Shown: positions 17,369 through 64,000 of the stretch, piece after piece
How the letters are laid out: each line of letters opens with the position of its first letter
How positions within the stretch are numbered: the stretch's first letter is position 1
DNA from: Polytrichum commune
Lineage: Eukaryota > Streptophyta > Polytrichopsida > Polytrichales > Polytrichaceae
Reading direction: 5' to 3'
Assembly: GCA_950295325.1 (NCBI GenBank)
Contig: OX485808.1
Coordinates: forward strand, 13,954,501-14,018,500
Length of the DNA: 64,000 bases
Position numbers and translations under genes: made by a program
Notes under the pieces: generated by a model
Told to the model about the DNA's origin: nothing
Databases searched by the model: none
What the model saw: the letters and a program-made list of their open reading frames with translations, nothing else

Positions 17369-19125
17369 TGGTTGGAGAGAATTCCTATCTGAATGCGACA
17401 CTTGTTAAACCACCCTCCTCGCCTTCTTCTGTTGCCCTCTTCGCCCTGAACGATTTCATATTCGTGTCAAATATTCTAGCATTTGAGGAAGCAGATCTCC
17501 CGTCCAACACACATGTGAACTCGCTTCTTAAACCCTCGCAAGCTAGCCACCTGCATTCCTCCCCTCTCGCAACCTACTGGCTGGCTTCTTGGAATCCTCG
17601 CTAGCTCACTCCCTAGCAGCACAAATAGCATGTTAGAATATTAAGCCACCTCTACCCCTGTAGCACCAACCGTCCTGGTGTAGCCACCTTTTTGTGCAGC
17701 CACGTCTCACCAGCAAGAGAATTCTCCAGCTGCTTCCGGCAGCTCATTGCTGACCTCCTCCAGGGCTTAGTTGCTCTCCATCGCCTTACTCATCCCACCC
17801 TCTTTGTGCTCTTGATGCCACTTCAGATCGAACCTCCTTGAAAATCTGGCAGGGCTTCGCCCCCTCCGGACTGCATGTTCGGCGAATGTGAGAGAGAGCA
17901 AAACTGTGGCCGACCCCCCGAGTTCCAGGGACCCCCCTCTCCCTAATCTGGAAATCAAGCTTCCTAATCTACACTTTGGAGGCACCCCCCATCCTAAAAC
18001 AAACCATGATCAAGCCTTAAACGAACAATGCTTGTGCCTCAAGCCACTATCCTAAAACAAACACTAAGCTAAGTCATAACCCAACTAACCTTAAGCTTTA
18101 CCTAACAATTAATTAATCCCCAAATCAATTCTTCTAGCCTCAAGCCCAAAGTAACTCCTACACTAGTCTTTAAGCTCAACTCCAACCTAAACTTGAAAGC
18201 CTCACTCTTTTTATCCTTTTGAATATCCAATGTAAATCTAAAGCCTAAGGTTTTAATGATTTTAAGATTAAGAACACATGTGGGCACAATATTGGGCTCA
18301 CAGATGGCCGCATGGAATCGGCCACCCACAAGATCATGACCCAAGCATCCAACCTCCATGCGATTGTCGGCACTTTGGCATACGAGAAACAAATGTCGAA
18401 CCAACGCATGCAAGGTATTGTTCAAAACATGACTGACTCAATGCCTCAAAAGTCTCCAATGCCCACCACCACCACAAGTTCCAAGGACATCGACGCACAC
18501 TACCACAACGCCACTCCAACTCCAACCTCCACCGGGCTTCCACCGCACACCTCCCACAATCAGCACCAAGACTACAACACATACAACGGATAGCTTCCCA
18601 ACCTATAGCCATCAATGGACCTCTACACTTGTACTCTTCTTTCTCTGCATATATATCAATAAAGGGTACAAGCTTATTCCTTGGACTCTTCTCATAATCC
18701 CACAATGCTCTCAACTAGATCAACAACTCAACCAAAGCAACACCATAATGGATAGTTTCATCCCAAATAGCCACCAATGGTGCTACATACTTGCCCTTTG
18801 CCTTCTCTACCAATGTACAAAGAAAAAATACAAGCTCAACCATTGGACTTTCACAATATCTCCGCAACACACCATCTCAAGAAGGTGCTCCAATCACTCA
18901 ATCAAAATGCTACTCCTCACCACAATCTTGCTCTCTAACATACCGCTTTACACACAAATAACCAACCCCCTCCCCCCCAACAAGTCCAACACACATCAAC
19001 AATCCACTCGACACACATAAACTTCCCACTACATGCACACACAACCTCAACTCACCCTATCAACGCACCATAATAGCCCCCCACTACCTAGAAACTCTTC
19101 CACATATCCACATAGCCTATAAAAC
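17369..19125. other. Outer part of left arm, no intact gene seen
   Basis: Short frames only (up to 126 codons), none with recognisable domains. Near 18270-18310 a CACATGTG(T)GGC...GGGCTCAC phrase is the reverse complement of a phrase at about 29980-30020, which hints that more of the TGTCAGCC repeat family lies here in opposite orientation. Confidence 0.4.
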
Positions 19126-19458
19126 CTAGCAAGGGGCAAAGCCCCCACACCCGACAACATCCCAAACGGATCCTAAAAGCACTGCCAACATCCTTCCACA
19201 ATGTGCTCTTTCTTTTCTTCAAACAATGTTACCTCCAAAAAAACAAAAACATACTAGTTTATTGGAAACACGTCAATATCGTATTACTCCACAAAATAGA
19301 GGACCCCCTCCTCATCACCAACTACAAACCCATCGCCTTAGCCAATATTATTTACAAACTTCTATACCAACACATTAACATCACTCCTTACTAGCTTTGG
19401 TGAAAAACACAAAATACTTCACTAGAGTCAAGAAGGCTTTAGGCCACAACAAAAGGGC
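19126..19458 (+). pseudogene. LINE reverse transcriptase fragment, left-arm copy
   Basis: Broken frames spell the start of a non-LTR retrotransposon reverse transcriptase in order: LARGKAPTPDNIPNG, a helix ending FFKQCYLQKN, WKHVNIVLLHKIEDP, NYKPIALANIIYKLL, and SQEGFRPQQ near 19426-19452. These match the conserved KAPGPDxIPxE, NYRPIxL and QxGFR blocks of L1-type LINEs. A frameshift/stop near 19174 and stops near 19394 and 19423 break the reading. The YADD active-site block is absent, so only the first palm/finger blocks remain. Confidence 0.8.
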
Positions 19459-21278
19459 ATATCCAGACTCGGTTTGTTGACACCACCTCTAGAAGTTGGC
19501 CGATCTTACCAAAAACATCAACTGGTTGGAAATATGTAGGTGGTCAAAATCACCTGAAAACTCTACCATAGGTTGGTATAAGTTAGAGATGCTAGATCCA
19601 AGCTTATTTTGTGGAAACGACCTCCAAAAGTTGGCCGATCAAGCCAAAAATATTAGTTGGTAGGGAGTGTTCATAGCATATTTTCAAGCCTTACACGAAA
19701 TTTTTGGGGTATTATACATTGAAGGAGCAGTCTAGGCATGAAGGACTAGCTTTGGAGGTGTCTTTGCAAGGCTTGGACGCGACTAGCAGCGAACTAGTTA
19801 ATGGAGCAAAGAAGGAGTGGGAAAACCCATTAATAAGTTCACATCCACCATGTGATTCTACTTCCACAAAAACATTGGACATGAATGCTTACTGGGTGAT
19901 CCCTGTCTACATGAGGAGATTGAGGGGGTCTATTTGATTTTGTAATTTTGGATTATACATGTGCTAAGTCTAGGTAGGTTGCATCACTACTGCTAAAATG
20001 TATGGTATACCATTTTTATCATTTGCAAGACAGTGAGCCATGGAATATTACAACTCTTGTTCCTATGGTAATTTCCCGTGTCCAATTGCCCATGTACATT
20101 ATCCATCGTGAGTAGTGATGGAGGTCCTTGGTAGGTTTTCACTTTTATCATTGTGAGGTGTTATGTCCAAATACATTTCATCCTCCAACTTTATTGTTTG
20201 ATGTCATAGCTCATAAAGGATCATATTTCTTACAAATGCCACTTTGTCATGGTTGTTACTATACATCACAAGTTAGGAGTTTTTTTACCACTTTCAAATT
20301 TTCCCAAATTACTTATTAATGTTGGCCAACATTGGGTATGTTTCCTTTTGCATTTCCATTTCTATATTTCCTTACTTGATCCTATGCACCTCTAAAGCTC
20401 ACAGTAATAATGATGCCTTTATTTGCAATTAAATACGCTCTTTATCAGCCCTACAATAATACATAATCCATAAAATCATGGGATTGCAATGGTTATCTAA
20501 ATGTTTATAAACCAAACACTAATGCTTTATTATGTGAGGTAACCTAGACTTTTCAATTTCGTTACACTCTGCAAATATGTGATTAATAATGTGTTGGAAA
20601 ACATTGTTTATGGTTTCTTTATTACATTGGCATTGTAAAATCTTTTATTAATTATCATAAAGTATAATAATAACACATACCATAAAAAAATCAACCACTC
20701 AAAAAAACATCTAAATTACACACCATACACCATTCATGTATTGTTTCTCCATGTATTGAAATCAATGGGCCAATGTTACTCATTGTTGTTAAAATCCTCC
20801 CGTTCAATGGATTCTTTGTCACTCTATCTAACACATCACTAATCTCTATTTCCAAATCCTTCGCAGATTGGGCCGAATTCTCCTCCATAAATTCTTCGTT
20901 CACAGTGCCTGCCATCATTGCTTCATCAACCAATGTCTCACCAGGATGAGCACTCATTGCTAACTCAACAGATCTTGACCTCAACCTTTTCGTCAACATC
21001 CTTGATTTGGCTTTCAACCACTAGCTCGTTTGGACCCAAACCAGATTGTGTTACTGCCTCCAGGTACCCACAACCCTCGACATCTACAACATAGAACCAA
21101 TCCTCATGTTCACTATCTTGGTGGTAAAACACATGACCAATGGAATATGCGCTCCCCAAGGCTCCCTATACCCTAAATTTGATGTTATTTTGATTTTGGT
21201 GAAACCACATTCATCCTCTATTACTATAACACAGTGGTGTGTTCCAACTACACTTTTGTACCATTTCCCCCGGAAAAT
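19459..21278. other. Left arm, no intact gene seen
   Basis: Contains an internal repeat: a phrase around GAAGTTGGCCGATC(T/A)(T/A) with flanking similarity occurs near 19490 and 19629. Reverse-strand frames at 20691-21017 (108 aa) and 20965-21159 (64 aa) overlap and may be a decayed gene, but no motif is recognised. Confidence 0.4.
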
Positions 21279-21738
21279 TCATATACATAGACAAATCGGT
21301 CTCTAATGAACCCTAAACCCTAAAAATACCCAAAGTCAAATAAAAAATACTCATGAAACTCAAAACCTCAATCCACGTGTTGGAATCATGGGCAATGACA
21401 TTGCGGACCAACTTACAAATGAAGGAACCACCCACAACAAACCCAACACTGCACCCCAAACACATTTTGCACACACCACACCCTACTGGGTCAATGGAGT
21501 CGCGACCAGCGAGCACAAAGGTGAGACACCCAACCTTCAAATTGACATAAACAAGTCCCACCAAGACAAAACTTCAGAATCGCCTAATAATACAAATTAC
21601 AATCTTCTTCTTTTTTTAAAGTCAAAAATATATATAAAAACAACAACAACAACAACTTCATATGCGTAGACAAATGGGTCTCTAATGAACCCTAAACCCT
21701 AAAAGTCCCCAAAAGTGGAATCAAAAACCTCATGAAAG
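21279..21738. repeat. Direct duplication carrying CCCTAAA motifs, left arm
   Basis: Two direct copies of an approximately 80-bp block, at 21279-21358 and 21658-21738 (379 bp apart). Each reads GACAAATCGGTCTC or GACAAATGGGTCTC, then TAATGAACCCTAAACCCTAA, then a diverging tail. The two tandem CCCTAAA units per copy equal the plant telomere repeat, but with only two units this is an interstitial motif rather than a telomere. A CAACAACAACAACAACTTC stretch lies at about 21641-21659. Confidence 0.75.
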
Positions 21739-23421
21739 ACATGCATCAGAGGGCCATCCAATACCTCACGTACCTCGTACTCAACAAAAGAAAACTAGAC
21801 TACACCCGACCACCGGGTAGATCAGCTCCCCCCAAAGAAACCAAGAACAGCAGTCACCAAGATAAACAAGACACATGTTACATAAGTGTCGCAGTGTAGC
21901 CCACCTCCCGAAACAAAGGGAGTGGCCCTACCTCGAAGGTTGGTAAAACGTGATCAAGGTCGGGAAGAACGGGCTACTACTCACTTCATCTCAGAAACAA
22001 AGGTACCGGTGTCATGTTTATCTTATTTATGCCAGTTGGATTGGATTGGAAATGCTCTCATCCACTTAGCAAACGCTAGTCACCAATATTTCAAGTTGGA
22101 GGACCAAATTTAGAACGCAATATTTCACATTCGCAAGAATCAAGAAACAATTTCACCAAAGCTTTATTGGTAATCCACCCAACTCTCTCGGATGGCGGAC
22201 TTCTGAAAGAAAAAAAAGACATGCTTCAGAGTGCAAAATTTTACAGTGTTACTGCAAGGTGGTTTTAGCATGCTTTACCTTGCCTAGTAGAATGTTCTCC
22301 CATAAAGTGTGTAGATAACAGCAACAAACTCAACATAACATATGCGTGCATTCAACGCACATCGTATAAAGTTGGCAAACACCATCTCCACACATACATC
22401 CAAATCCGAAACATCCATAGCCATAAGAATCCCTATTGAACTTCCATTATCACCACAGAGAACAGCTTTCCCGCAAATTAAGAATACTCTGAATGCCATC
22501 TTTCTTAATTTAATTGCGTTCGATTCTCAGGAGAACTCCCTTGCTTTTCATTTACATGTGAAATTATTCCTACATACTCCGCTTACCCTCTCGAGGACGC
22601 TGTACCACTTACTCACGAGGATTGCATATTAATAATTATCGCAAACCAATCCCCTTGCATTACGACATCCATTGACCTAATTCGTGTATCCCTTGACCTA
22701 ACCTCTCCACATTCTTTTGCATGGATAGATCGAACCCCTTTTCATAATGCCATTTTCCACACCAAATCCAATTAACCAACACCGATATCTCATCCACAGC
22801 GTCCAAAACACGCTGCTTCAACGACATCACAATCAACCATCCACGTATCACAATAGGCAAAACCCAACAATATACGCTTATAAAACAAGTGCGCTATAGT
22901 CTGACGACCAGCACAATCGTATATCAAGACCAAAACTCCATTATGATGCAAACATTTTCACAATCCAAACACGACATCCCACCACCCTCCATTACAAAAC
23001 AATGCACCTAAATTTGCAACTTATTAACCTGCCCCTCTACGATCACACATAATATCATCCACATAACCACCCAACAATACCTACCCCAACATGCGTCACA
23101 TGGACAATGCAACCCACACCCTATCTCATAACACCGGACCATAATTCATCACAAAAATCCATTCATGAACGCACTCTCTTGCTGCAGCAACCCTCCTCAC
23201 ATAAAAATTAAAATGAATGTCGTAATCATCAAAATTTTATATATGTTTTATCAAAAACCACATCGGCCCTGCCATCGTCTGTCAAGCACCCAAGTCTGCC
23301 TCTGCCGGGCGAGCAACAAATGTATCGAACAAGCATGAACCAGACGAGATTGAACGGGACCCGCAACCAACGCCGCGGGCCATCCGCCGCATCCACCCTG
23401 CTGCGGCTCCGTCGACGCTAT
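21739..23421. other. Left arm, downstream of EF-1alpha; no other gene seen
   Basis: The last few hundred bases next to the EF-1alpha stop codon (about 23230-23421) are the probable 3' untranslated region, with a TATATAAAA/AATAAA-like AT-rich stretch (on the gene strand) about 180 bp after the stop. The rest has only short frames with no motif recognised. Confidence 0.45.
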
Positions 23422-24998
23422 TCACTTCTTCTTCAGCGCCGCCTTCGTCACCTTCGCGCCCGACGGATCCTTCTTCTCCACAGCCTTGATCACTCCCACC
23501 GCCACCGTCTGCCTCATGTCGCGCACCGCGAACCGTCCCAATGGCGGGTACTCGGCGAAAGTCTCCACCGTCATCGGCTTCGTCGGAATCATCTTCACGA
23601 ACCCGGCGTCTCCGTTCTTCAAAAACTTCGGCTCCTTCTCAAGCTCCTTTCCGGACCGCCTGTCCACCTTCGTCAAAATCTCCGCGAACTTCACCGCGAT
23701 GTGCGACGTGTGGCAATCCAGCACCGGCGCGTACCCGTTCCCGATCTGTCCGGGGTGGTTCATGATGATCACCTGCGCCGTGAAGTTGGCCGCCTCGCGC
23801 GCCGGGTCGTTCTTCGAGTCCGACGCCACGTACCCTCTCTTCAGGTCCTTCACCGCCACGTTCTTCACGTTGAATCCCACGTTGTCTCCCGGGTGCGCCT
23901 CCAACATCGACTCGTGGTGCATTTCCACCGACTTCACCTCAGTCGTCAGTCCCGTCGGCGCGAAGCACACCAACATACCGGGCTTGATCACTCCCGTCTC
24001 CACTCGTCCCACCGGCACCGTTCCGATGCCTCCGATCTTGTACACGTCCTGCAGGGGCAACCTCAACGGCTTGTCCGACGGCCTCTTCGGCTCGAAAATG
24101 CCGTCCAAAGCCTCCAGCAGCGTCGGCCCCTTGTACCAGTCCAAGTTCGACGACCTCTCGATCATGTTGTCTCCCTCGAATCCCGAGATGGGCACGAACG
24201 GAATCTTGTCGGGGTTGTAACCCACCTTCTTCAAGTACGACGACACCTCCTTCGTGATCTCGTCGAAACGGGCCTTGCTGTACTTCGGGGTCGTCGCGTC
24301 CATCTGCAATCCACCATTTCCCAACAATTAACCCCTATACCTCCCTTTCCCAATTTACTTCAAACCTCATGTTCACCTCCCGACACATGACCCACCGTCC
24401 CTCGTGCACACGTCTCGTTTTGCATTTCTGCCCATCCCAGCTACACGAAACATAAATTCCAAACCCACATTCCACATTAACCCCCCTCCCAACCACCCAC
24501 TTTCCGCAACCCTCCAACATAACTCCCACCACATACCTTGTTGCAGCAACAGATCATCTGCTTCACTCCCAATGTGAATGCCAACAACGCGTGCTCACGC
24601 GTCTGCCCGTCCTTCGAAATACCGGCTTCGAATCCTCCCGTCGTCGAGTCGATGATCAACACGGCGCAATCAGCCTGTGACGTTCCTGTGATCATGTTCT
24701 TGATGAAATCGCGATGTCCGGGTGCGTCGATCACGGTGCAGTAGTACTTCGTCGTCTCGAACTTCCACAGAGCGATATCGATCGTGATACCGCGCTCGCG
24801 CTCTGCCTTCAACTTGTCCAACACCCACGCGTACTTGAACGAACGCTTGTTCATCTCCGCCGCTTCCTTCTCGAAACGCTCGATCACACGCTTGTCGATA
24901 CCTCCCAACTTGTAGATAAGGTGACCGGTCGTCGTCGACTTCCCGGAGTCCACATGGCCGATGACCACGATGTTGATATGGGCTTTCTCCTTACCCAT
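23422..24998 (-). CDS. EF1A: Elongation factor 1-alpha, left-arm copy
   Basis: GTPase that delivers aminoacyl-tRNA to the cytosolic ribosome. Two coding exons on the reverse strand: 24998-24537 (154 codons) and 24303-23422 (293 codons plus stop), separated by a 233-bp GT-AG intron at 24536-24304. The spliced protein is 447 aa, close to the 447-449 aa typical of plants. Seen directly: G1 GHVDSGKST at residues 14-22, G3 DAPGH near 91-95, and NKMD at 153-156, split by the intron between K154 and M155 as in other plant genes. The C-terminus ends in three Lys. No frame break is present and third codon positions are strongly G/C-rich against an AT-rich neighbourhood, so it looks functional. The start is the ATG of MGKEKAHIN. 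The right-arm copy is identical and points the opposite way. Confidence 0.97.
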
Positions 24999-25008
24999 CT
25001 TGAATGCT

Positions 25009-25417
25009 CTGCACCCCGCGCACGCAATTCACCAAACCCCTCAGTAACACAAACTAGCCCACAAAACAAATTAACGCCGCACCTCTCCAACAACCCCGCC
25101 CACTCCCATCCAACATCCAAGCACCCTCTCCCATAAACTCTCCGTGCACCCTACAAAACCCCACCTTCTCCACGCCGCCAAACACCTCCCACCACCACAA
25201 ATGCCCTCTTCTTCTCACCGCCCTTGCTCAATTCCAATGCCCGTGCAAACGCCCCAGCCCTCGCCGCACCTCTTCCCACGCCCCCTCCCAAACCGAACCC
25301 TATCCCACCAAACTATACAACCTGCACGAAACCTCGTCTAGCGTCCACTCCGCAAAGCAAAAACAAAAAAACACATACATGCACACCGGAACCACACAAA
25401 TGCAGCTGCACACCAAC
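25009..25417 (-). other. Probable 5' UTR intron of EF-1alpha, left copy
   Basis: On the gene strand a donor ACGTTCAG|GTTGGT and an acceptor GGGGTGCAG|AGCATTCAAG bound 409 bp, ending 10 bp before the ATG. A long leader intron just before the start codon is usual for plant EF-1alpha genes. Inferred from splice signals only. Confidence 0.6.
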
Positions 25418-25739
25418 CTGAACGTCTGCGACGCAAAAACGATGTCACCGAGATGGACGCGTCCGGAGCTGCTCTCGCAGAGAGAGAGCCGAAGAGTGAA
25501 GGGGAGAGTTCAGCAGCGCCGCGGACTCTTAACCCTAGCTCCCTGCCTTCCTCCCCGTCCTCCCTGCCCCCGATCTCCCGCGGCCCACCGTCCGATCCAG
25601 ACCATCTGACGGCGCCGGGCTGCACCGCTGTCTGCTCCTAATCAAAGCGCAAACACGTCGGCTCGGTTCCTAATTCACTTCACAATCGAAAACCTCACTC
25701 GCCGCCGCTGTGTTTCAAGATTGTGCCTCTGCTAATTCA
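25418..25739 (-). promoter_or_regulatory. EF-1alpha promoter and leader, left copy
   Basis: On the gene strand it contains a TGGGCC motif (site II/TCP type), a telo-box-like CTAGGGTTAA about 45 bp further on, and a pyrimidine-rich CTCTCCCCTTCACTCTTCGG stretch that may hold the transcription start. Telo-box and site II combinations are typical of plant translation-machinery genes. No clear TATA box was seen. Confidence 0.5.
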
Positions 25740-28623
25740 CATCAATTAAGTTATTGCACATAGGTATCAAGAAAGAAAAAATATTTTTAGTCTCAATTGA
25801 ATATTTGATGAATATTCAAAGTCAAAACTACTAGTTTCCTTATACCAATCCATAGGCAACCTCGCATATGATGAGGACCCCCACCTTCATTGCCTAGAAC
25901 CAACACAACATAGCTGGGTACTAGACCCAAACTACATCAAAGCCCAAGTAGTAATGGTATGCAAAGCCACACGGCTACCTCCATGATCCCTCCCGGTTCG
26001 CTTGCAAAACCATCACCTTGCATCCCGGGAACCGACCCCCTTTGCATCCCTGGAAATGACCCTTTTGTGCTTTGTGGGCCTACCTCCTTGGTGTTGTGAA
26101 TAGAATGACTAGAATAGGCATTGACAAGCCACCCTAATCCCACCTTGAACCAACCCGAGATAGAGTGGAGCCCGTTACATACCCTACATGAAGGTCATGG
26201 AGGCCGCTCTGAGGTGGCACCACTAATGGCACCTAAAACCGTCACTTCGTGGGCCCATACACTCCTACACCGCCGGGTACGGTTCAAGGTTGCAGAGTGT
26301 TGGCAATTGGGAGGCGTTTATAGGTGTTGGTTTTGGATGGGGTGTTGGTTTTAGCACCCTCTACCTTATCACATGTCACATGTACAAATCACGCGTGCTA
26401 TGAACTACGCCGGATAACATGCCTTTTATCTCACCCTCCTCACTTTTCCCATGACGCTTCTTACGAATAAGTGAACAAATATCGTCCTGGATGCTATGCT
26501 GGATGACTTCATCCATGTCACCAACTTCCCATGAAATATCATCACCGATGATTGCAATCTGGATGAAAAATCACTCCGTAAGCCACAACAATCGCTACGT
26601 CTCCAAAAAACTTTACCACTTAATGCCGGGGACACTACAATTCCTATCTAACAAGACCATTACCGTCGGTGACACTAAATGTCATATTCAATGTAGTAAC
26701 TCAGCATGGTAATGGTAATGGTGAGGTCGGCCCATATGCTTTGCCACCATCGGGGATTGTAGCCGCCACGATGGAGATGCCCTCATGCTTAGGTATCTAT
26801 CTAAGTGAGACCCATGATCCTTAGGACACCAAACAACCTTGAACCTCGCAAACGATAATGATGTGCATCAACCAAGAACGCCTACTGCGAGCTTTGCACC
26901 ACCCCATCACACGATCCACCCACGAATCCCGAACGACTCTCACCTCCCATCCCCCCCGTCCCCCAACAAATGACGCCACTCTCAATGGTATGAACTCTTC
27001 CTTTCCACCAAAATGGAAGGCTTTCCACAAGGTCCATGCCAACCAACTCCATGACTCATAATCAACCATAAGAGATCAACGGATGAACGTAATATGACAC
27101 GATGGATGATATTTTCACTACACATTTGTGGATATTTTGTGTCGAGTTTTGGTAACCCTATTGCTCTTGGATGAGCAATCAACTACGAATGAGTACCTTC
27201 ACTTAGATCTATCAACTTAAAATATAAACGACCACTAAATCATCCATATAGATATTATATTTCAAATAGTATGTTCATCCTCAAACTTGTTAGCATTCTC
27301 AAAATTAGTGTGTGCTAGAATAATCGAGTCCACGTCAAATTTCTATGGGATAATCAATTTTTTTTTAGATTTTGCCCACATCAATTTCATTTCCAACCAA
27401 AACTTTGTGGTGTCTCACATGTAGAACATTGTTCCAGTCTTGTTGAGTTTGAATACCTAGTCAAGATTGATAAAACTGTGGCTGCAATGAAAATGTGAAC
27501 AAAATCGAACTATGTTTCAAGCATATTAGCCACGTAGATCTAGTTCGAAGGTGGCATATAATGCAAGGTCTTTGATGGCTTGTGAATTCACATAGCCTCC
27601 ATGTCACAGTAAAGGAAGCACTGGGTGTCAAAATTTGTCTAGGATATGGTATGCATGTAGGGCGGCGTGCATATGACCCTTGGACCGCTACTGGCATCTA
27701 TGGCACACAATCTTCAAAGTTATCGGCAAATATATGATGCGAGGCATTGAATTTGTGGTCGGGTTGCAAGTGGTCAGTTGAGTTGGCGATATAGGTGCTT
27801 GGAAATTTGCAATCTAGTGGCTCGCATCAGGTAGATGGGTCTTAAGTGGCTCATGTCCTTCATTGGAACCCTATATTTGATTGGTACATGGTTCGATGAG
27901 GATCAAAGAGCAAACATCATAGCAGAGCCCAACATTTTCCTTTAAATTGCACCCATACCCAGACCATGCCCATTAGCAGCGACCTATGCCCACCCATGCC
28001 CACTCATAGCATGACATGTGCGCACCCATGCCCACACATAGCATGACATGTCCCCACCCATGTCCACCCATGCTATTCAAATTGCGCCCATGTATTCAAA
28101 GATTGTGTAATGTGTATCACCCGCCTACACCAAGTCTTGGTTGGATCGGACAAATAAAAGATCGTTCACTATCGTTGGCTTCAGGGGAAAGTTAGTATAC
28201 GAGCGGAGAGCGGAGAACTCAATTTGAGACATGAATTGAGAGGAAAAATGCACGTATAACCGCGGGATTTACTGAAAATATATAACTATTTTTAGAAAAG
28301 TTTAAGGTTTAGGTACTCTATTACCGTGGAAATAGGGCAACATTTCTTGATTCATAACATTTATAGAATTTTGAAGCATAGAAATATTTTAATAAATTAC
28401 AAAATTAGGGCTTACATCAGCATGACGTCACCAAGACAATATCCAAACACGTGTACTATAGCAAATATTACTGTAAATTAAAAACATTTACTATTTGAAG
28501 TAAACACGAAGCAGGTCTGTTAAAATAAATTTTCCACATGATTTGAGAGAATTATTATGTATACTTGTAGGAAGATTTGTTTACTATTCTATTTTCTGAT
28601 GTCATAATATTATCCTCAAAATT
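25740..28623. other. Left arm between EF-1alpha and the GNHR gene
   Basis: No intact gene recognised; frames are under about 85 codons. A phrase near 26615-26720 holds GGGGACACTACAATT and ATTACCGTCGGTGACACTAAA, sharing the TTTAGTGTCACC core with 44670-44690 in the spacer. The 32-bp minisatellite at 27991-28074 lies here. Confidence 0.4.
27991..28074. repeat. 32-bp minisatellite, left arm
   Basis: Two full units starting CACCCATGCCCAC at 27991 and 28023, each containing CATAGCATGACATGT, and a partial third from 28055. CCATGCCCA-like phrases continue for some 40 bp on the left side. Confidence 0.75.
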
Positions 28624-44469: not shown

Positions 44470-44480
44470 TGGGTCCAACA

Positions 44481-46459: not shown

Positions 46460-46476
46460 GATGTGGCTCAAAAGTG

Positions 46477-48046
46477 CCTTCTCGGATCACAGAGTGTCCT
46501 TCTCTAGTCCATATCCAACTTATTCACTATCAAAATTGAACCAGTCCAAACAAGTTCAACCCAACTACACATACAAAGTGCCTAGCCTTGATATCAAAAT
46601 GTGGTCCTCAAGCCCTCCAGCGAAGACTCTCTCGGATCCGAGAGGATCCTTCTCTAGTCCATACCCAACTTATTCACCAGCAAAACCAAACAAGTCCAAA
46701 CAAGTTGATCCAACTACACATACAAAGTGCCTAGTCTTGAAATCAAAATGTGGTCCTCAAGCCCTCAAGTGAAGACCCTCTCGGATCCGAGAGGGTCCTT
46801 CTCTAGTCCATACCCAACTTATTCACCATCAAAACCGACCCAATCCAAACAAGTTGACCCAACTACACATACTAAGTACCTAGCCTTGAAGTCAAAATCT
46901 GGTCCTAATGCCCTCCAAGTAAAGACCCTCTCGGATCCGAGAGGGTCCTTCTCTAGTCCTTTCCCAACTATTTCACAATCACCTCCACCACCCTCTCGGA
47001 TCCGAGAGGGTCCCTACCAAGAAGCCCCTACAAACTTCAGACCATCATAACTTTTTCATACATTCTTGGATTTTAACAAATGACCAATCCATCTTCATTT
47101 ACGCTTCTTGTAGATGCTAATGGACTACTCACTTGCCACATTTAGGTAAGTATTGAGGAAGTTATGGCTATTCAAAGCTATGTCCCAAAACAAAATCTGA
47201 TGTGGGGATCCTACACCTCCACCACCCTCTAGGATCCGAGAGGGTGTATATGTAACATATCATGTACACAAACATATACTCTCTCATATCATATACCCAC
47301 ATAAATACCTCGCACATACAACAAACGTAGGTCCCAAAGCAAAATCTGATGTAGGGATCCTACCCCTCCACCACCCTCTCGGATCCGGGAGGGTGTGTAT
47401 GTGACATATCATATACACAAATATATACTCTCACATATCATATACCCAAAGAAATACCTTACACATCCTTCAAACCTAGATCCCAAAGCAAAATATGATG
47501 TGGGGATCCCACCCCTCCACCACCCTCTCGGATTCGAGAGGATGTGTATGTGACATATCATGTATACAAACATATACTCTCCCATATCATATACCCACAT
47601 AAATACCTCGCACATACAACAAACGTAGGTCCCAAAGCAAAATCTGATGTGAGGATCCTACACCTCCACCACCCTCTTTGATCCGAGAGGGTATGTATGT
47701 GACATATTATGTATACAAACATATACTCTCCCATATCATATACCCACATAAATACCTCGCACATACAGCAAACGTAGGTCCCAAAGCAAAATCAAATGTG
47801 AGAATCCTACCCCTCCACCACCCTCTCTGATCCGAGAGGGTGTGTATGTAACATATCATATACACAAACATATACTCTCACATATCATATATCCAAAGAA
47901 ATACCTCACACATCCTTCAAACCTACATCCCAAAGCAAAATATGATGTGGGGATCCCACCCCTCCACCACCCGCTCGGATCCGAGAGGGTGTCTATGTGA
48001 TATATCATATACACATACATATACTCTCCTATATCATATACTCAAG
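46477..48046. repeat. 149/150-bp satellite with palindromic core, right arm
   Basis: Mirror image of 33323-34892, with the same eleven palindromic cores. The decayed core CCTTCTCGGATCACAGAGTG sits at the very start of the arm. The array ends directly at the first recognised exon of the GNHR gene. Confidence 0.93.
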
Positions 48047-52745: not shown

Positions 52746-55629
52746 AATTTTGAGGATAATATTATGACATCAGAAAATAGAATAGTAAACAAATCTTCCT
52801 ACAAGTATACATAATAATTCTCTCAAATCATGTGGAAAATTTATTTTAACAGACCTGCTTCGTGTTTACTTCAAATAGTAAATGTTTTTAATTTACAGTA
52901 ATATTTGCTATAGTACACGTGTTTGGATATTGTCTTGGTGACGTCATGCTGATGTAAGCCCTAATTTTGTAATTTATTAAAATATTTCTATGCTTCAAAA
53001 TTCTATAAATGTTATGAATCAAGAAATGTTGCCCTATTTCCACGGTAATAGAGTACCTAAACCTTAAACTTTTCTAAAAATAGTTATATATTTTCAGTAA
53101 ATCCCGCGGTTATACGTGCATTTTTCCTCTCAATTCATGTCTCAAATTGAGTTCTCCGCTCTCCGCTCGTATACTAACTTTCCCCTGAAGCCAACGATAG
53201 TGAACGATCTTTTATTTGTCCGATCCAACCAAGACTTGGTGTAGGCGGGTGATACACATTACACAATCTTTGAATACATGGGCGCAATTTGAATAGCATG
53301 GGTGGACATGGGTGGGGACATGTCATGCTATGTGTGGGCATGGGTGCGCACATGTCATGCTATGAGTGGGCATGGGTGGGCATAGGTCGCTGCTAATGGG
53401 CATGGTCTGGGTATGGGTGCAATTTAAAGGAAAATGTTGGGCTCTGCTATGATGTTTGCTCTTTGATCCTCATCGAACCATGTACCAATCAAATATAGGG
53501 TTCCAATGAAGGACATGAGCCACTTAAGACCCATCTACCTGATGCGAGCCACTAGATTGCAAATTTCCAAGCACCTATATCGCCAACTCAACTGACCACT
53601 TGCAACCCGACCACAAATTCAATGCCTCGCATCATATATTTGCCGATAACTTTGAAGATTGTGTGCCATAGATGCCAGTAGCGGTCCAAGGGTCATATGC
53701 ACGCCGCCCTACATGCATACCATATCCTAGACAAATTTTGACACCCAGTGCTTCCTTTACTGTGACATGGAGGCTATGTGAATTCACAAGCCATCAAAGA
53801 CCTTGCATTATATGCCACCTTCGAACTAGATCTACGTGGCTAATATGCTTGAAACATAGTTCGATTTTGTTCACATTTTCATTGCAGCCACAGTTTTATC
53901 AATCTTGACTAGGTATTCAAACTCAACAAGACTGGAACAATGTTCTACATGTGAGACACCACAAAGTTTTGGTTGGAAATGAAATTGATGTGGGCAAAAT
54001 CTAAAAAAAAATTGATTATCCCATAGAAATTTGACGTGGACTCGATTATTCTAGCACACACTAATTTTGAGAATGCTAACAAGTTTGAGGATGAACATAC
54101 TATTTGAAATATAATATCTATATGGATGATTTAGTGGTCGTTTATATTTTAAGTTGATAGATCTAAGTGAAGGTACTCATTCGTAGTTGATTGCTCATCC
54201 AAGAGCAATAGGGTTACCAAAACTCGACACAAAATATCCACAAATGTGTAGTGAAAATATCATCCATCGTGTCATATTACGTTCATCCGTTGATCTCTTA
54301 TGGTTGATTATGAGTCATGGAGTTGGTTGGCATGGACCTTGTGGAAAGCCTTCCATTTTGGTGGAAAGGAAGAGTTCATACCATTGAGAGTGGCGTCATT
54401 TGTTGGGGGACGGGGGGGATGGGAGGTGAGAGTCGTTCGGGATTCGTGGGTGGATCGTGTGATGGGGTGGTGCAAAGCTCGCAGTAGGCGTTCTTGGTTG
54501 ATGCACATCATTATCGTTTGCGAGGTTCAAGGTTGTTTGGTGTCCTAAGGATCATGGGTCTCACTTAGATAGATACCTAAGCATGAGGGCATCTCCATCG
54601 TGGCGGCTACAATCCCCGATGGTGGCAAAGCATATGGGCCGACCTCACCATTACCATTACCATGCTGAGTTACTACATTGAATATGACATTTAGTGTCAC
54701 CGACGGTAATGGTCTTGTTAGATAGGAATTGTAGTGTCCCCGGCATTAAGTGGTAAAGTTTTTTGGAGACGTAGCGATTGTTGTGGCTTACGGAGTGATT
54801 TTTCATCCAGATTGCAATCATCGGTGATGATATTTCATGGGAAGTTGGTGACATGGATGAAGTCATCCAGCATAGCATCCAGGACGATATTTGTTCACTT
54901 ATTCGTAAGAAGCGTCATGGGAAAAGTGAGGAGGGTGAGATAAAAGGCATGTTATCCGGCGTAGTTCATAGCACGCGTGATTTGTACATGTGACATGTGA
55001 TAAGGTAGAGGGTGCTAAAACCAACACCCCATCCAAAACCAACACCTATAAACGCCTCCCAATTGCCAACACTCTGCAACCTTGAACCGTACCCGGCGGT
55101 GTAGGAGTGTATGGGCCCACGAAGTGACGGTTTTAGGTGCCATTAGTGGTGCCACCTCAGAGCGGCCTCCATGACCTTCATGTAGGGTATGTAACGGGCT
55201 CCACTCTATCTCGGGTTGGTTCAAGGTGGGATTAGGGTGGCTTGTCAATGCCTATTCTAGTCATTCTATTCACAACACCAAGGAGGTAGGCCCACAAAGC
55301 ACAAAAGGGTCATTTCCAGGGATGCAAAGGGGGTCGGTTCCCGGGATGCAAGGTGATGGTTTTGCAAGCGAACCGGGAGGGATCATGGAGGTAGCCGTGT
55401 GGCTTTGCATACCATTACTACTTGGGCTTTGATGTAGTTTGGGTCTAGTACCCAGCTATGTTGTGTTGGTTCTAGGCAATGAAGGTGGGGGTCCTCATCA
55501 TATGCGAGGTTGCCTATGGATTGGTATAAGGAAACTAGTAGTTTTGACTTTGAATATTCATCAAATATTCAATTGAGACTAAAAATATTTTTTCTTTCTT
55601 GATACCTATGTGCAATAACTTAATTGATG
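52746..55629. other. Right arm between the GNHR gene and EF-1alpha
   Basis: Mirror of 25740-28623; no intact gene recognised. The 32-bp minisatellite is at 53295-53378. Confidence 0.4.
53295..53378. repeat. 32-bp minisatellite, right arm
   Basis: Mirror of 27991-28074, two full units and one partial. Confidence 0.75.
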
Positions 55630-55951
55630 TGAATTAGCAGAGGCACAATCTTGAAACACAGCGGCGGCGAGTGAGGTTTTCGATTGTGAAGTGAATTAGG
55701 AACCGAGCCGACGTGTTTGCGCTTTGATTAGGAGCAGACAGCGGTGCAGCCCGGCGCCGTCAGATGGTCTGGATCGGACGGTGGGCCGCGGGAGATCGGG
55801 GGCAGGGAGGACGGGGAGGAAGGCAGGGAGCTAGGGTTAAGAGTCCGCGGCGCTGCTGAACTCTCCCCTTCACTCTTCGGCTCTCTCTCTGCGAGAGCAG
55901 CTCCGGACGCGTCCATCTCGGTGACATCGTTTTTGCGTCGCAGACGTTCAG
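55630..55951 (+). promoter_or_regulatory. EF-1alpha promoter and leader, right copy
   Basis: TGGGCC (site II type) at 55782-55787, telo-box-like CTAGGGTTAA at 55831-55840, pyrimidine-rich CTCTCCCCTTCACTCTTCGG at 55861-55880. No clear TATA box. Identical to the left copy, so both copies keep the same local control sequence. Confidence 0.5.
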
Positions 55952-56360
55952 GTTGGTGTGCAGCTGCATTTGTGTGGTTCCGGTGTGCATGTATGTGTTT
56001 TTTTGTTTTTGCTTTGCGGAGTGGACGCTAGACGAGGTTTCGTGCAGGTTGTATAGTTTGGTGGGATAGGGTTCGGTTTGGGAGGGGGCGTGGGAAGAGG
56101 TGCGGCGAGGGCTGGGGCGTTTGCACGGGCATTGGAATTGAGCAAGGGCGGTGAGAAGAAGAGGGCATTTGTGGTGGTGGGAGGTGTTTGGCGGCGTGGA
56201 GAAGGTGGGGTTTTGTAGGGTGCACGGAGAGTTTATGGGAGAGGGTGCTTGGATGTTGGATGGGAGTGGGCGGGGTTGTTGGAGAGGTGCGGCGTTAATT
56301 TGTTTTGTGGGCTAGTTTGTGTTACTGAGGGGTTTGGTGAATTGCGTGCGCGGGGTGCAG
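55952..56360 (+). other. Probable 5' UTR intron of EF-1alpha, right copy
   Basis: Donor ACGTTCAG|GTTGGT at 55951/55952, acceptor GGGGTGCAG|AGCATTCAAG at 56360/56361, 10 bp before the ATG. Confidence 0.6.
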
Positions 56361-56370
56361 AGCATTCAAG

Positions 56371-57947
56371 ATGGGTAAGGAGAAAGCCCATATCAACATC
56401 GTGGTCATCGGCCATGTGGACTCCGGGAAGTCGACGACGACCGGTCACCTTATCTACAAGTTGGGAGGTATCGACAAGCGTGTGATCGAGCGTTTCGAGA
56501 AGGAAGCGGCGGAGATGAACAAGCGTTCGTTCAAGTACGCGTGGGTGTTGGACAAGTTGAAGGCAGAGCGCGAGCGCGGTATCACGATCGATATCGCTCT
56601 GTGGAAGTTCGAGACGACGAAGTACTACTGCACCGTGATCGACGCACCCGGACATCGCGATTTCATCAAGAACATGATCACAGGAACGTCACAGGCTGAT
56701 TGCGCCGTGTTGATCATCGACTCGACGACGGGAGGATTCGAAGCCGGTATTTCGAAGGACGGGCAGACGCGTGAGCACGCGTTGTTGGCATTCACATTGG
56801 GAGTGAAGCAGATGATCTGTTGCTGCAACAAGGTATGTGGTGGGAGTTATGTTGGAGGGTTGCGGAAAGTGGGTGGTTGGGAGGGGGGTTAATGTGGAAT
56901 GTGGGTTTGGAATTTATGTTTCGTGTAGCTGGGATGGGCAGAAATGCAAAACGAGACGTGTGCACGAGGGACGGTGGGTCATGTGTCGGGAGGTGAACAT
57001 GAGGTTTGAAGTAAATTGGGAAAGGGAGGTATAGGGGTTAATTGTTGGGAAATGGTGGATTGCAGATGGACGCGACGACCCCGAAGTACAGCAAGGCCCG
57101 TTTCGACGAGATCACGAAGGAGGTGTCGTCGTACTTGAAGAAGGTGGGTTACAACCCCGACAAGATTCCGTTCGTGCCCATCTCGGGATTCGAGGGAGAC
57201 AACATGATCGAGAGGTCGTCGAACTTGGACTGGTACAAGGGGCCGACGCTGCTGGAGGCTTTGGACGGCATTTTCGAGCCGAAGAGGCCGTCGGACAAGC
57301 CGTTGAGGTTGCCCCTGCAGGACGTGTACAAGATCGGAGGCATCGGAACGGTGCCGGTGGGACGAGTGGAGACGGGAGTGATCAAGCCCGGTATGTTGGT
57401 GTGCTTCGCGCCGACGGGACTGACGACTGAGGTGAAGTCGGTGGAAATGCACCACGAGTCGATGTTGGAGGCGCACCCGGGAGACAACGTGGGATTCAAC
57501 GTGAAGAACGTGGCGGTGAAGGACCTGAAGAGAGGGTACGTGGCGTCGGACTCGAAGAACGACCCGGCGCGCGAGGCGGCCAACTTCACGGCGCAGGTGA
57601 TCATCATGAACCACCCCGGACAGATCGGGAACGGGTACGCGCCGGTGCTGGATTGCCACACGTCGCACATCGCGGTGAAGTTCGCGGAGATTTTGACGAA
57701 GGTGGACAGGCGGTCCGGAAAGGAGCTTGAGAAGGAGCCGAAGTTTTTGAAGAACGGAGACGCCGGGTTCGTGAAGATGATTCCGACGAAGCCGATGACG
57801 GTGGAGACTTTCGCCGAGTACCCGCCATTGGGACGGTTCGCGGTGCGCGACATGAGGCAGACGGTGGCGGTGGGAGTGATCAAGGCTGTGGAGAAGAAGG
57901 ATCCGTCGGGCGCGAAGGTGACGAAGGCGGCGCTGAAGAAGAAGTGA
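56371..57947 (+). CDS. EF1A: Elongation factor 1-alpha, right-arm copy
   Basis: Cytosolic translation elongation GTPase, identical in protein sequence to the left-arm copy. Exon 1 is 56371-56832 (154 codons), intron 56833-57065 (GTATGT...GCAG), exon 2 57066-57947 including TGA. Together 447 aa with all GTPase motifs ([18 protein letters not shown] across the splice, SGFEGDN). The conserved GTG-rich second half matches plant EF-1alpha throughout domains II and III. It has its own promoter, leader intron and 3' sequence, so both copies should be expressible. Transcription runs away from the centre of the inverted repeat, as in the left copy. Confidence 0.97.
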
Positions 57948-59630
57948 ATAGCGTCGACGGAGCCGCAGCAGGGTGGATGCGGCGGATGGCCCGCGGCGTT
58001 GGTTGCGGGTCCCGTTCAATCTCGTCTGGTTCATGCTTGTTCGATACATTTGTTGCTCGCCCGGCAGAGGCAGACTTGGGTGCTTGACAGACGATGGCAG
58101 GGCCGATGTGGTTTTTGATAAAACATATATAAAATTTTGATGATTACGACATTCATTTTAATTTTTATGTGAGGAGGGTTGCTGCAGCAAGAGAGTGCGT
58201 TCATGAATGGATTTTTGTGATGAATTATGGTCCGGTGTTATGAGATAGGGTGTGGGTTGCATTGTCCATGTGACGCATGTTGGGGTAGGTATTGTTGGGT
58301 GGTTATGTGGATGATATTATGTGTGATCGTAGAGGGGCAGGTTAATAAGTTGCAAATTTAGGTGCATTGTTTTGTAATGGAGGGTGGTGGGATGTCGTGT
58401 TTGGATTGTGAAAATGTTTGCATCATAATGGAGTTTTGGTCTTGATATACGATTGTGCTGGTCGTCAGACTATAGCGCACTTGTTTTATAAGCGTATATT
58501 GTTGGGTTTTGCCTATTGTGATACGTGGATGGTTGATTGTGATGTCGTTGAAGCAGCGTGTTTTGGACGCTGTGGATGAGATATCGGTGTTGGTTAATTG
58601 GATTTGGTGTGGAAAATGGCATTATGAAAAGGGGTTCGATCTATCCATGCAAAAGAATGTGGAGAGGTTAGGTCAAGGGATACACGAATTAGGTCAATGG
58701 ATGTCGTAATGCAAGGGGATTGGTTTGCGATAATTATTAATATGCAATCCTCGTGAGTAAGTGGTACAGCGTCCTCGAGAGGGTAAGCGGAGTATGTAGG
58801 AATAATTTCACATGTAAATGAAAAGCAAGGGAGTTCTCCTGAGAATCGAACGCAATTAAATTAAGAAAGATGGCATTCAGAGTATTCTTAATTTGCGGGA
58901 AAGCTGTTCTCTGTGGTGATAATGGAAGTTCAATAGGGATTCTTATGGCTATGGATGTTTCGGATTTGGATGTATGTGTGGAGATGGTGTTTGCCAACTT
59001 TATACGATGTGCGTTGAATGCACGCATATGTTATGTTGAGTTTGTTGCTGTTATCTACACACTTTATGGGAGAACATTCTACTAGGCAAGGTAAAGCATG
59101 CTAAAACCACCTTGCAGTAACACTGTAAAATTTTGCACTCTGAAGCATGTCTTTTTTTTCTTTCAGAAGTCCGCCATCCGAGAGAGTTGGGTGGATTACC
59201 AATAAAGCTTTGGTGAAATTGTTTCTTGATTCTTGCGAATGTGAAATATTGCGTTCTAAATTTGGTCCTCCAACTTGAAATATTGGTGACTAGCGTTTGC
59301 TAAGTGGATGAGAGCATTTCCAATCCAATCCAACTGGCATAAATAAGATAAACATGACACCGGTACCTTTGTTTCTGAGATGAAGTGAGTAGTAGCCCGT
59401 TCTTCCCGACCTTGATCACGTTTTACCAACCTTCGAGGTAGGGCCACTCCCTTTGTTTCGGGAGGTGGGCTACACTGCGACACTTATGTAACATGTGTCT
59501 TGTTTATCTTGGTGACTGCTGTTCTTGGTTTCTTTGGGGGGAGCTGATCTACCCGGTGGTCGGGTGTAGTCTAGTTTTCTTTTGTTGAGTACGAGGTACG
59601 TGAGGTATTGGATGGCCCTCTGATGCATGT
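57948..59630. other. Right arm, downstream of EF-1alpha; no other gene seen
   Basis: Begins with the probable 3' untranslated region; a GATAAAACATATATAAAA stretch at about 58117-58134 could serve as poly(A) signal region. Mirror of 21739-23421. Confidence 0.45.
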
Positions 59631-60090
59631 CTTTCATGAGGTTTTTGATTCCACTTTTGGGGACTTTTAGGGTTTAGGGTTCATTAGAGACCCATTTGTC
59701 TACGCATATGAAGTTGTTGTTGTTGTTGTTTTTATATATATTTTTGACTTTAAAAAAAGAAGAAGATTGTAATTTGTATTATTAGGCGATTCTGAAGTTT
59801 TGTCTTGGTGGGACTTGTTTATGTCAATTTGAAGGTTGGGTGTCTCACCTTTGTGCTCGCTGGTCGCGACTCCATTGACCCAGTAGGGTGTGGTGTGTGC
59901 AAAATGTGTTTGGGGTGCAGTGTTGGGTTTGTTGTGGGTGGTTCCTTCATTTGTAAGTTGGTCCGCAATGTCATTGCCCATGATTCCAACACGTGGATTG
60001 AGGTTTTGAGTTTCATGAGTATTTTTTATTTGACTTTGGGTATTTTTAGGGTTTAGGGTTCATTAGAGACCGATTTGTCTATGTATATGA
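59631..60090. repeat. Direct duplication carrying CCCTAAA motifs, right arm
   Basis: Mirror of 21279-21738: the approximately 80-bp blocks are at 59631-59711 and 60011-60090, here reading TTAGGGTTTAGGGTTCATTA. Confidence 0.75.
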
Positions 60091-61910
60091 ATTTTCCGGG
60101 GGAAATGGTACAAAAGTGTAGTTGGAACACACCACTGTGTTATAGTAATAGAGGATGAATGTGGTTTCACCAAAATCAAAATAACATCAAATTTAGGGTA
60201 TAGGGAGCCTTGGGGAGCGCATATTCCATTGGTCATGTGTTTTACCACCAAGATAGTGAACATGAGGATTGGTTCTATGTTGTAGATGTCGAGGGTTGTG
60301 GGTACCTGGAGGCAGTAACACAATCTGGTTTGGGTCCAAACGAGCTAGTGGTTGAAAGCCAAATCAAGGATGTTGACGAAAAGGTTGAGGTCAAGATCTG
60401 TTGAGTTAGCAATGAGTGCTCATCCTGGTGAGACATTGGTTGATGAAGCAATGATGGCAGGCACTGTGAACGAAGAATTTATGGAGGAGAATTCGGCCCA
60501 ATCTGCGAAGGATTTGGAAATAGAGATTAGTGATGTGTTAGATAGAGTGACAAAGAATCCATTGAACGGGAGGATTTTAACAACAATGAGTAACATTGGC
60601 CCATTGATTTCAATACATGGAGAAACAATACATGAATGGTGTATGGTGTGTAATTTAGATGTTTTTTTGAGTGGTTGATTTTTTTATGGTATGTGTTATT
60701 ATTATACTTTATGATAATTAATAAAAGATTTTACAATGCCAATGTAATAAAGAAACCATAAACAATGTTTTCCAACACATTATTAATCACATATTTGCAG
60801 AGTGTAACGAAATTGAAAAGTCTAGGTTACCTCACATAATAAAGCATTAGTGTTTGGTTTATAAACATTTAGATAACCATTGCAATCCCATGATTTTATG
60901 GATTATGTATTATTGTAGGGCTGATAAAGAGCGTATTTAATTGCAAATAAAGGCATCATTATTACTGTGAGCTTTAGAGGTGCATAGGATCAAGTAAGGA
61001 AATATAGAAATGGAAATGCAAAAGGAAACATACCCAATGTTGGCCAACATTAATAAGTAATTTGGGAAAATTTGAAAGTGGTAAAAAAACTCCTAACTTG
61101 TGATGTATAGTAACAACCATGACAAAGTGGCATTTGTAAGAAATATGATCCTTTATGAGCTATGACATCAAACAATAAAGTTGGAGGATGAAATGTATTT
61201 GGACATAACACCTCACAATGATAAAAGTGAAAACCTACCAAGGACCTCCATCACTACTCACGATGGATAATGTACATGGGCAATTGGACACGGGAAATTA
61301 CCATAGGAACAAGAGTTGTAATATTCCATGGCTCACTGTCTTGCAAATGATAAAAATGGTATACCATACATTTTAGCAGTAGTGATGCAACCTACCTAGA
61401 CTTAGCACATGTATAATCCAAAATTACAAAATCAAATAGACCCCCTCAATCTCCTCATGTAGACAGGGATCACCCAGTAAGCATTCATGTCCAATGTTTT
61501 TGTGGAAGTAGAATCACATGGTGGATGTGAACTTATTAATGGGTTTTCCCACTCCTTCTTTGCTCCATTAACTAGTTCGCTGCTAGTCGCGTCCAAGCCT
61601 TGCAAAGACACCTCCAAAGCTAGTCCTTCATGCCTAGACTGCTCCTTCAATGTATAATACCCCAAAAATTTCGTGTAAGGCTTGAAAATATGCTATGAAC
61701 ACTCCCTACCAACTAATATTTTTGGCTTGATCGGCCAACTTTTGGAGGTCGTTTCCACAAAATAAGCTTGGATCTAGCATCTCTAACTTATACCAACCTA
61801 TGGTAGAGTTTTCAGGTGATTTTGACCACCTACATATTTCCAACCAGTTGATGTTTTTGGTAAGATCGGCCAACTTCTAGAGGTGGTGTCAACAAACCGA
61901 GTCTGGATAT
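60091..61910. other. Right arm, no intact gene seen
   Basis: Mirror of 19459-21278. Overlapping forward frames at 60210-60404 and 60352-60678 may be a decayed gene; no motif recognised. Confidence 0.4.
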
Positions 61911-62243
61911 GCCCTTTTGTTGTGGCCTAAAGCCTTCTTGACTCTAGTGAAGTATTTTGTGTTTTTCACCAAAGCTAGTAAGGAGTGATGTTAATGTGTT
62001 GGTATAGAAGTTTGTAAATAATATTGGCTAAGGCGATGGGTTTGTAGTTGGTGATGAGGAGGGGGTCCTCTATTTTGTGGAGTAATACGATATTGACGTG
62101 TTTCCAATAAACTAGTATGTTTTTGTTTTTTTGGAGGTAACATTGTTTGAAGAAAAGAAAGAGCACATTGTGGAAGGATGTTGGCAGTGCTTTTAGGATC
62201 CGTTTGGGATGTTGTCGGGTGTGGGGGCTTTGCCCCTTGCTAG
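61911..62243 (-). pseudogene. LINE reverse transcriptase fragment, right-arm copy
   Basis: Mirror of 19126-19458, with the same KAPTPDNIP, NYKPIAL and QEGFR blocks and the same stops. Confidence 0.8.
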
Positions 62244-64000
62244 GTTTTATAGGCTATGTGGATATGTGGAAGAGTTTCTAGGTAGTGGGGGGCTATTATG
62301 GTGCGTTGATAGGGTGAGTTGAGGTTGTGTGTGCATGTAGTGGGAAGTTTATGTGTGTCGAGTGGATTGTTGATGTGTGTTGGACTTGTTGGGGGGGAGG
62401 GGGTTGGTTATTTGTGTGTAAAGCGGTATGTTAGAGAGCAAGATTGTGGTGAGGAGTAGCATTTTGATTGAGTGATTGGAGCACCTTCTTGAGATGGTGT
62501 GTTGCGGAGATATTGTGAAAGTCCAATGGTTGAGCTTGTATTTTTTCTTTGTACATTGGTAGAGAAGGCAAAGGGCAAGTATGTAGCACCATTGGTGGCT
62601 ATTTGGGATGAAACTATCCATTATGGTGTTGCTTTGGTTGAGTTGTTGATCTAGTTGAGAGCATTGTGGGATTATGAGAAGAGTCCAAGGAATAAGCTTG
62701 TACCCTTTATTGATATATATGCAGAGAAAGAAGAGTACAAGTGTAGAGGTCCATTGATGGCTATAGGTTGGGAAGCTATCCGTTGTATGTGTTGTAGTCT
62801 TGGTGCTGATTGTGGGAGGTGTGCGGTGGAAGCCCGGTGGAGGTTGGAGTTGGAGTGGCGTTGTGGTAGTGTGCGTCGATGTCCTTGGAACTTGTGGTGG
62901 TGGTGGGCATTGGAGACTTTTGAGGCATTGAGTCAGTCATGTTTTGAACAATACCTTGCATGCGTTGGTTCGACATTTGTTTCTCGTATGCCAAAGTGCC
63001 GACAATCGCATGGAGGTTGGATGCTTGGGTCATGATCTTGTGGGTGGCCGATTCCATGCGGCCATCTGTGAGCCCAATATTGTGCCCACATGTGTTCTTA
63101 ATCTTAAAATCATTAAAACCTTAGGCTTTAGATTTACATTGGATATTCAAAAGGATAAAAAGAGTGAGGCTTTCAAGTTTAGGTTGGAGTTGAGCTTAAA
63201 GACTAGTGTAGGAGTTACTTTGGGCTTGAGGCTAGAAGAATTGATTTGGGGATTAATTAATTGTTAGGTAAAGCTTAAGGTTAGTTGGGTTATGACTTAG
63301 CTTAGTGTTTGTTTTAGGATAGTGGCTTGAGGCACAAGCATTGTTCGTTTAAGGCTTGATCATGGTTTGTTTTAGGATGGGGGGTGCCTCCAAAGTGTAG
63401 ATTAGGAAGCTTGATTTCCAGATTAGGGAGAGGGGGGTCCCTGGAACTCGGGGGGTCGGCCACAGTTTTGCTCTCTCTCACATTCGCCGAACATGCAGTC
63501 CGGAGGGGGCGAAGCCCTGCCAGATTTTCAAGGAGGTTCGATCTGAAGTGGCATCAAGAGCACAAAGAGGGTGGGATGAGTAAGGCGATGGAGAGCAACT
63601 AAGCCCTGGAGGAGGTCAGCAATGAGCTGCCGGAAGCAGCTGGAGAATTCTCTTGCTGGTGAGACGTGGCTGCACAAAAAGGTGGCTACACCAGGACGGT
63701 TGGTGCTACAGGGGTAGAGGTGGCTTAATATTCTAACATGCTATTTGTGCTGCTAGGGAGTGAGCTAGCGAGGATTCCAAGAAGCCAGCCAGTAGGTTGC
63801 GAGAGGGGAGGAATGCAGGTGGCTAGCTTGCGAGGGTTTAAGAAGCGAGTTCACATGTGTGTTGGACGGGAGATCTGCTTCCTCAAATGCTAGAATATTT
63901 GACACGAATATGAAATCGTTCAGGGCGAAGAGGGCAACAGAAGAAGGCGAGGAGGGTGGTTTAACAAGTGTCGCATTCAGATAGGAATTCTCTCCAACCA
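62244..64000. other. Outer part of right arm to window end, no intact gene seen
   Basis: Mirror of 17369-19125; short frames only. Confidence 0.4.

Follow-up and report, generated by a model that had tools for sequence, protein, structure and literature searches.

An 18.8-kb segment carrying EF1A occurs as two nearly identical inverted copies with palindromic satellite at their inner ends in the assembled genome of Polytrichum commune

The stretch of DNA analyzed here, called the window in the following, comprises 64,000 nucleotides of Polytrichum commune (GenBank assembly GCA_950295325.1; 407,808,757 bases in 64 contigs) and corresponds to positions 13954501 to 14018500 of contig OX485808.1 (C6; 44,651,608 bases). 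It contains a giant inverted repeat whose arms both carry a gene for EF1A and enclose a spacer at 34893-46476 (11,584 nt; guanine plus cytosine (GC) content 0.407, compared with 0.457 in the arm). An initial inspection of the letters, which we call the sequence-only reading, had described arms of at least 17.5 kb with two base differences and no net indel, separated by a unique spacer of 11.6 kb. Alignment of positions 17369-34892 with the reverse complement of 46477-64000 confirmed the repeat, with two mismatches in 17,524 nt and without indels, and the exact mirror runs within the window are 13,096, 5 and 4,421 nt long. By comparison, the longest reverse-complement matches in ten first-order Markov resamplings of the window reached 15-19 nt. 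The size given for the spacer was correct, but its uniqueness does not hold for the first 374 nt, which belong to a dispersed repeat.

The sequence-only reading had suggested following the contig past position 64000 to find the outer end of the repeat. For this search the sequence was extended by 40 kb to the left and 39.5 kb to the right, giving a stretch of 143.5 kb, and the end was located 1,284 nt beyond the window. In window coordinates the full arms therefore extend from 16085 to 34892 (left arm, plus strand) and from 46477 to 65284 (right arm, minus strand, the reverse complement of the left; 46477-64000 lie within the window). They comprise 18,808 nt each and show the same two differences only, which corresponds to 99.99% identity without any indel. 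The outer limits of the mirror are at C6:13970585 (16085) and C6:14019784 (65284). The flanks beyond these two positions are unrelated to each other at the junctions, and the 143.5-kb stretch across the structure is free of N. The alignment including the flanks thus revealed one segment present in two inverted copies, with unrelated sequence on the outside. The whole mirrored unit measures 49.2 kb and is interstitial, about 14 Mb along the 44.65-Mb contig, with the right outer flank at 14.02 Mb.

Each arm contains an intact gene for EF1A, a core factor of protein synthesis, in agreement with the housekeeping gene announced by the sequence-only reading. The coding region consists of two exons separated by a 233-nt GT-AG intron and has 447 codons. 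The left copy is located on the minus strand at 23422-24998 (exon 1 24998-24537, intron 24536-24304, exon 2 24303-23422) and the right copy on the plus strand at 56371-57947 (exon 1 56371-56832, intron 56833-57065, exon 2 57066-57947); the two encoded proteins are identical. The best 120 of 7,404 hits include a JGI cluster, with which the protein shares 97% identity, and the liverwort Riccia sorocarpa, with 96%. A tree of 22 rows, consisting of the window protein and 21 sequences chosen from these hits, grouped the window, the JGI cluster and Riccia together with support values of 95/93. Riccia sorocarpa is the nearest named row by tree distance, and no row of this tree was recognized as moss, hornwort or lycophyte. 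By this tree alone a liverwort source appeared likely. Since both arms carry an intact EF1A gene, the structure is read as a segmental duplication, as had been proposed. The satellite and repeat debris reported for the arms was found as well, whereas a broken gene, also claimed, could not be identified.

Searches of the assembly with pieces of the arm returned two copies. The outermost 300 nt match with 100% identity at the two arms only, and all remaining matches among the 18 of 18 candidates scored are partial and do not exceed 84%. For a 1,201-nt piece of the central arm, full-length 100% matches occur at the two arms only, judged from the best 40 of 1,585 candidates. The first approximately 370 nt of this piece (26000-26369, plus strand) are a dispersed repeat that occurs with 95-98% identity at 38 other places listed in the same search and is identical between the arms. 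Neither a third near-identical copy of the arm nor a spare haplotig was present among the matches listed for these two queries.

The dispersed repeat within the arm also bears on the age of the structure. Its distance from the 38 relatives listed is 2-5%, while the two arms do not differ in it at all; judged by these distances, the copying of the arms is far younger than the spread of the repeat. Assuming 7e-9 substitutions per site and generation as in Arabidopsis, a rate that may not fit this plant, two differences correspond to about 7,600 generations, and no difference at all to an upper limit of about 11,400. The two differences are located at 30465/50904 and 30471/50898 (T versus A), 6 nt apart and within one A-rich tract (30460-30480 and 50889-50909). 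This tract contains two T in the left arm and an unbroken run of A of equal total length in the right arm. Given the first difference, the chance that the second one falls into the same 21-nt tract is about 0.001 under random placement, and for this reason the pair looks like a single event or an error of the consensus. The pattern is odd for ordinary mutation.

The inner ends of both arms fall into the final monomer of a satellite. Two arrays with 149-nt monomers lie next to each other in this region. Family A occupies 33328-34198 in the left arm (plus strand; mirrored at 47182-48045), and family B occupies 34388-34896 (plus strand; mirrored at 46480-46981), its last monomer holding the inner end of the arm. 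Family B monomers have a perfectly palindromic core of up to 24 nt, found at 34572-34595 (plus strand) and 34422-34445. A 22-nt form occurs at 34358-34379 and a degenerate form at the arm end (34872-34893). In both arms the inner end is at the margin of the final satellite palindrome. As single-stranded DNA the palindromic unit folds better than 200 of 200 shuffled sequences. Both families have a 22-nt palindrome in common; a relationship beyond this palindrome is not supported, as 134 of 500 shuffles reached the alignment score. In collections of genome contigs and viral contigs the palindromic core was not found. A search with window positions 46100-46900 listed 140 matches (best 40 of 422 candidates), of which 118 are on C4, 12 on C5, 4 on C6 and 2 each on C1, C2 and C3; the satellite matches on C4 are located at approximately 41.97-58.3 Mb. 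Among the matches listed, the palindromic satellite is thus concentrated on a single chromosome.

On the other side of the left inner junction the spacer opens with an interior piece of a second dispersed repeat (34890-35263, plus strand). Six copies of this repeat were fetched. Five of them (L003 and L005-L008) are 99.5-99.9% alike, which points to recent activity of the repeat, and show 94% identity to the window over this piece; the sixth, L004, is about 92% identical to the other five and 89% to the window over 34890-35598. All six copies carry other upstream sequence in the place where the window has satellite. As the repeat copies continue upstream and the window does not, the left inner junction is, by this comparison, a non-homologous join. 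The repeat is presumably of the long terminal repeat type, to judge from a motif resembling a primer site.

Among the best 40 of 422 candidates, a list filled up with satellite, the last 377 nt of the spacer have no other place in the assembly except for satellite matches that reach at most 25 nt into them. Two hairpins (46396-46417 and 46440-46459) lie beside the right inner junction within 46396-46459. Eight hairpins with a stem of at least 9, excluding satellite and AT hairpins, were counted in 46.5 kb, and two of these fall within 81 nt of the right junction. A segment of 131 nt across the right inner junction folds better than 200 of 200 shuffles, whereas at the left inner junction 139 of 200 shuffles fold equally well.

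Within the spacer, a retroelement remnant at 36877-38706 (plus strand) contains RNase H and integrase domains and, from these domains and their order, is probably of the Ty3 type; a 120-nt tandem duplicate, 93% alike, is located at 43128-43373. A Pfam scan of 62 of the 129 open reading frames (ORFs) detected transposon and retroelement domains only, and tRNA and Rfam scans of the window found none. The 140-amino-acid ORF at 32167-32586 had no confident Pfam match; a family of 76 related proteins, named at most 'hypothetical', was found, and this family is much repeated. Outside the arms, the ORFs at 2885-4650 are without a Pfam match, and the second of them has 245 related proteins with a best identity of 87%; we take these ORFs to resemble a transposase family.

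As to the origin of the structure, we lean towards a recent faulty repair of a break at the edge of the hairpin-forming satellite, by which the 18.8-kb EF1A segment would have been duplicated in inverted orientation. The break would have occurred at the satellite edge and would have left two identical broken ends, either those of sister copies or one end together with its template-switched copy. These ends would then have been joined to both ends of the 11.6-kb piece by end joining or by microhomology, and finally the outer end of the new copy would have been connected to the right flank. In favor of this account we count the bounded arms with different N-free flanks, the absence of flanking direct repeats of 6 nt or more, the listing of the two arms as the only full copies of the pieces searched, the small divergence of the arms compared with that of the dispersed repeat within them, the foldable palindromic satellite at both inner ends, the spacer start inside a dispersed repeat, and the hairpins and strong folding at the right inner junction. 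Inverted arms around a spacer are also a published layout (PMC3907307). Sister-end fusion, fold-back priming and template switching are all sub-models of such an inverted-copy origin, and we do not decide between them. Template switching is known to yield interstitial forms (DUP-NML-INV/DUP, PMC7702065).

Several points weigh against repair of a break at the satellite edge. The duplication is seen in the assembled sequence alone. The site as it was before the duplication was not found; the first 209 nt of the right outer flank have no match elsewhere in the assembly, and the spacer end likewise is without another copy among the matches listed. Fold-back cases in humans (PMC3907307) and in yeast (PMC10164571) end in terminal loss, translocation or rings, whereas the copy described here is interstitial, so that a second join must be assumed. 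The strong folding at the right junction is not unique, as 125 of 1,856 windows of the same size are as strong; among windows of similar or lower GC content 5 of 631 fold as strongly, one of them overlapping the junction. Moreover, L017, a 90% relative of the satellite block located on C4, loses its similarity in the phase at which the arm ends, and 10 of the final 12 nt agree. In the 30 nt that follow, 12 positions of L017 agree with the left side and 7 with the right side, which is no clear likeness to either. The arm end may accordingly mark the natural end of the satellite block and not a break, or it may be a place where the block tends to break. Two further relatives, L018 and L019, continue into another array; in these, the array passes into a further one with a different palindromic core. 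In view of L017 our confidence in repair of a break is slightly lower, and it remains the account that we favor to a modest degree.

It is a much bolder proposal that the satellite with the palindromic core is a recurrent break element which, when its hairpin units are located beside a gene, leads replication or repair to produce giant perfect palindromes. We regard this proposal as doubtful. If it were true, a plant that presumably spends most of its life as a haploid would gain paired housekeeping genes able to convert each other.

Among the competing explanations, fold-back priming survives best, although we consider it unlikely. Here a resected 3' end at the end of the spacer would anneal to an inverted near-match at the spacer start and prime synthesis of the arm in inverted form; a dicentric would result, to be broken and rejoined afterwards. 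The model is a variant within the class of the favored account and would make the junction between the left arm and the spacer ancestral. The spacer ends do contain, beside the junction, an inverted near-match of 7 of 8 nt, a value that 159 of 20,000 random position pairs attain, with block length and offsets picked post hoc. The satellite also appears to be longer by 6 nt on the left side than on the right, and a prefix of 6 nt is reached at 83 of 88,900 positions. The spacer size is within the published range (PMC3907307), and in yeast, once long single strands have formed, folding back is possible between inverted repeats separated by up to 30 kb (PMC10164571). However, the 6 nt can also be read as sequence of the dispersed repeat itself with a 2-nt gap, in an alignment that contains two gaps altogether, so that the continuation is not decisive for polarity and counts as weak evidence. 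Fold-back priming would in addition need a priming site at the boundary of satellite and repeat by chance, and the contig continues past the outer end without any terminal loss being seen.

An artefact of assembly or library preparation, in which a single 18.8-kb segment was duplicated by the assembler or amplified as a chimera, ranks next and is improbable in our estimation. The arms are identical except in one A-rich tract, whole-genome amplification creates inverted chimeras that enter assemblies (PMC6218980), and foldback reads occur in nanopore data (PMC12870357). Such reads, however, return to the same place within 200 bp (PMC12870357), and here 11,584 nt lie in between; the sequence-only reading had likewise taken the spacer to speak against a simple hairpin-read error. 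The mirror ends at 16085 and 65284 with different, N-free sequence on each side, which would require two independent false junctions. A walk of the assembler through a heterozygous inversion would be expected to mirror up to the end of the contig and to leave a missing flank elsewhere, and it was set aside once the outer end of the mirror had been found. The concern about an artefact, raised from the beginning, is thus reduced by the distinct outer flanks and by the lack of a third listed copy, but it is not removed.

We think it still less probable that the structure is an older palindrome whose arms were kept identical by gene conversion, as in sex chromosomes. Long inverted arms with more than 99% identity and a short spacer characterize such palindromes, and the arms described here reach 99.99% over 18,808 nt; their size is also close to that of a palindrome on the willow W chromosome with 20-kb arms and a 3.6-kb spacer (PMC7023750). 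On the other hand, the structure shows no sign of age, the sole gene identified in it is a housekeeping gene, and the debris of satellite and repeats shows no difference between the arms all the way to their two ends. The sequence-only reading had offered a very recent event or continuing conversion; this choice follows from the identity, and the data favor neither by themselves. We infer that the arms are alike owing to a young event, without any need for gene conversion. That the structure is a giant transposon with terminal inverted repeats of 18.8 kb is very improbable, since, although the 49.2-kb unit is flanked by mirror ends, no direct repeat of at least 6 nt was found within 50 nt outside or 10 nt inside either outer end, the arms hold a normal two-exon coding gene, and the outer 300 nt occur elsewhere only as the partial matches described above, with no further full copies.

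The structure is an unusually clean example of an already known type of inverted duplication. Should reads confirm it, it would show a natural inverted duplication of a plant almost untouched by later mutation, with an intact EF1A gene doubled. As all four junctions lie on a single contig and the inner ends carry a hairpin satellite, it could serve as a natural test case for models of formation known from mutants of yeast and from human patients. Should it prove to be an assembly error, the coordinates of the junctions mark the exact place to correct.

Among plant systems, the palindromes of the willow W chromosome (PMC7023750) are similar in their arms of about 20 kb and a spacer in the kb range. 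The willow arms differ from those described here in their inferred age of millions of years, in the limited extent of their converted stretches and in carrying sex-linked genes. Eleven gene palindromes have been reported in a springtail, one of them with a synonymous substitution rate of 0.2 (PMC5490193). Among the papers listed for sex-chromosome palindromes of liverworts or plants, no title or opening of an abstract reports such a palindrome in a bryophyte. Origin-dependent inverted-repeat amplification begins with a triplication, from which its authors derive inverted duplications by later rearrangement (PMC10766186), whereas only two copies of the arm are among the matches listed here.

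Further parallels come from humans and yeast. In human inverted duplications with single-copy (disomic) spacers (Hermetz et al. 2014, PMC3907307), spacer length ranges over 766-70,466 bp; these duplications share with the structure in P. commune the two inverted copies, and its spacer of 11.6 kb is within their range. The human cases lie beside terminal deletions or translocations or in rings, and tabulated examples measure megabases, whereas the plant structure is interstitial, has arms of 18.8 kb and carries a palindromic satellite at its inner ends. The foldback or hairpin inverted duplications of yeast (PMC10622511; PMC10164571), observed with sizes of about 24 and 100 kb (PMC10164571), resemble it in combining an inverted sequence at the break with an inverted copy; they arise in mutant cells and are resolved via broken dicentrics, while here a break in the past is presumed. 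The DUP-NML-INV/DUP structures (PMC7702065) are likewise interstitial, with the inverted copy following a segment of normal copy number; they are known from human inversions, and a junction template in the plant structure would be hypothetical.

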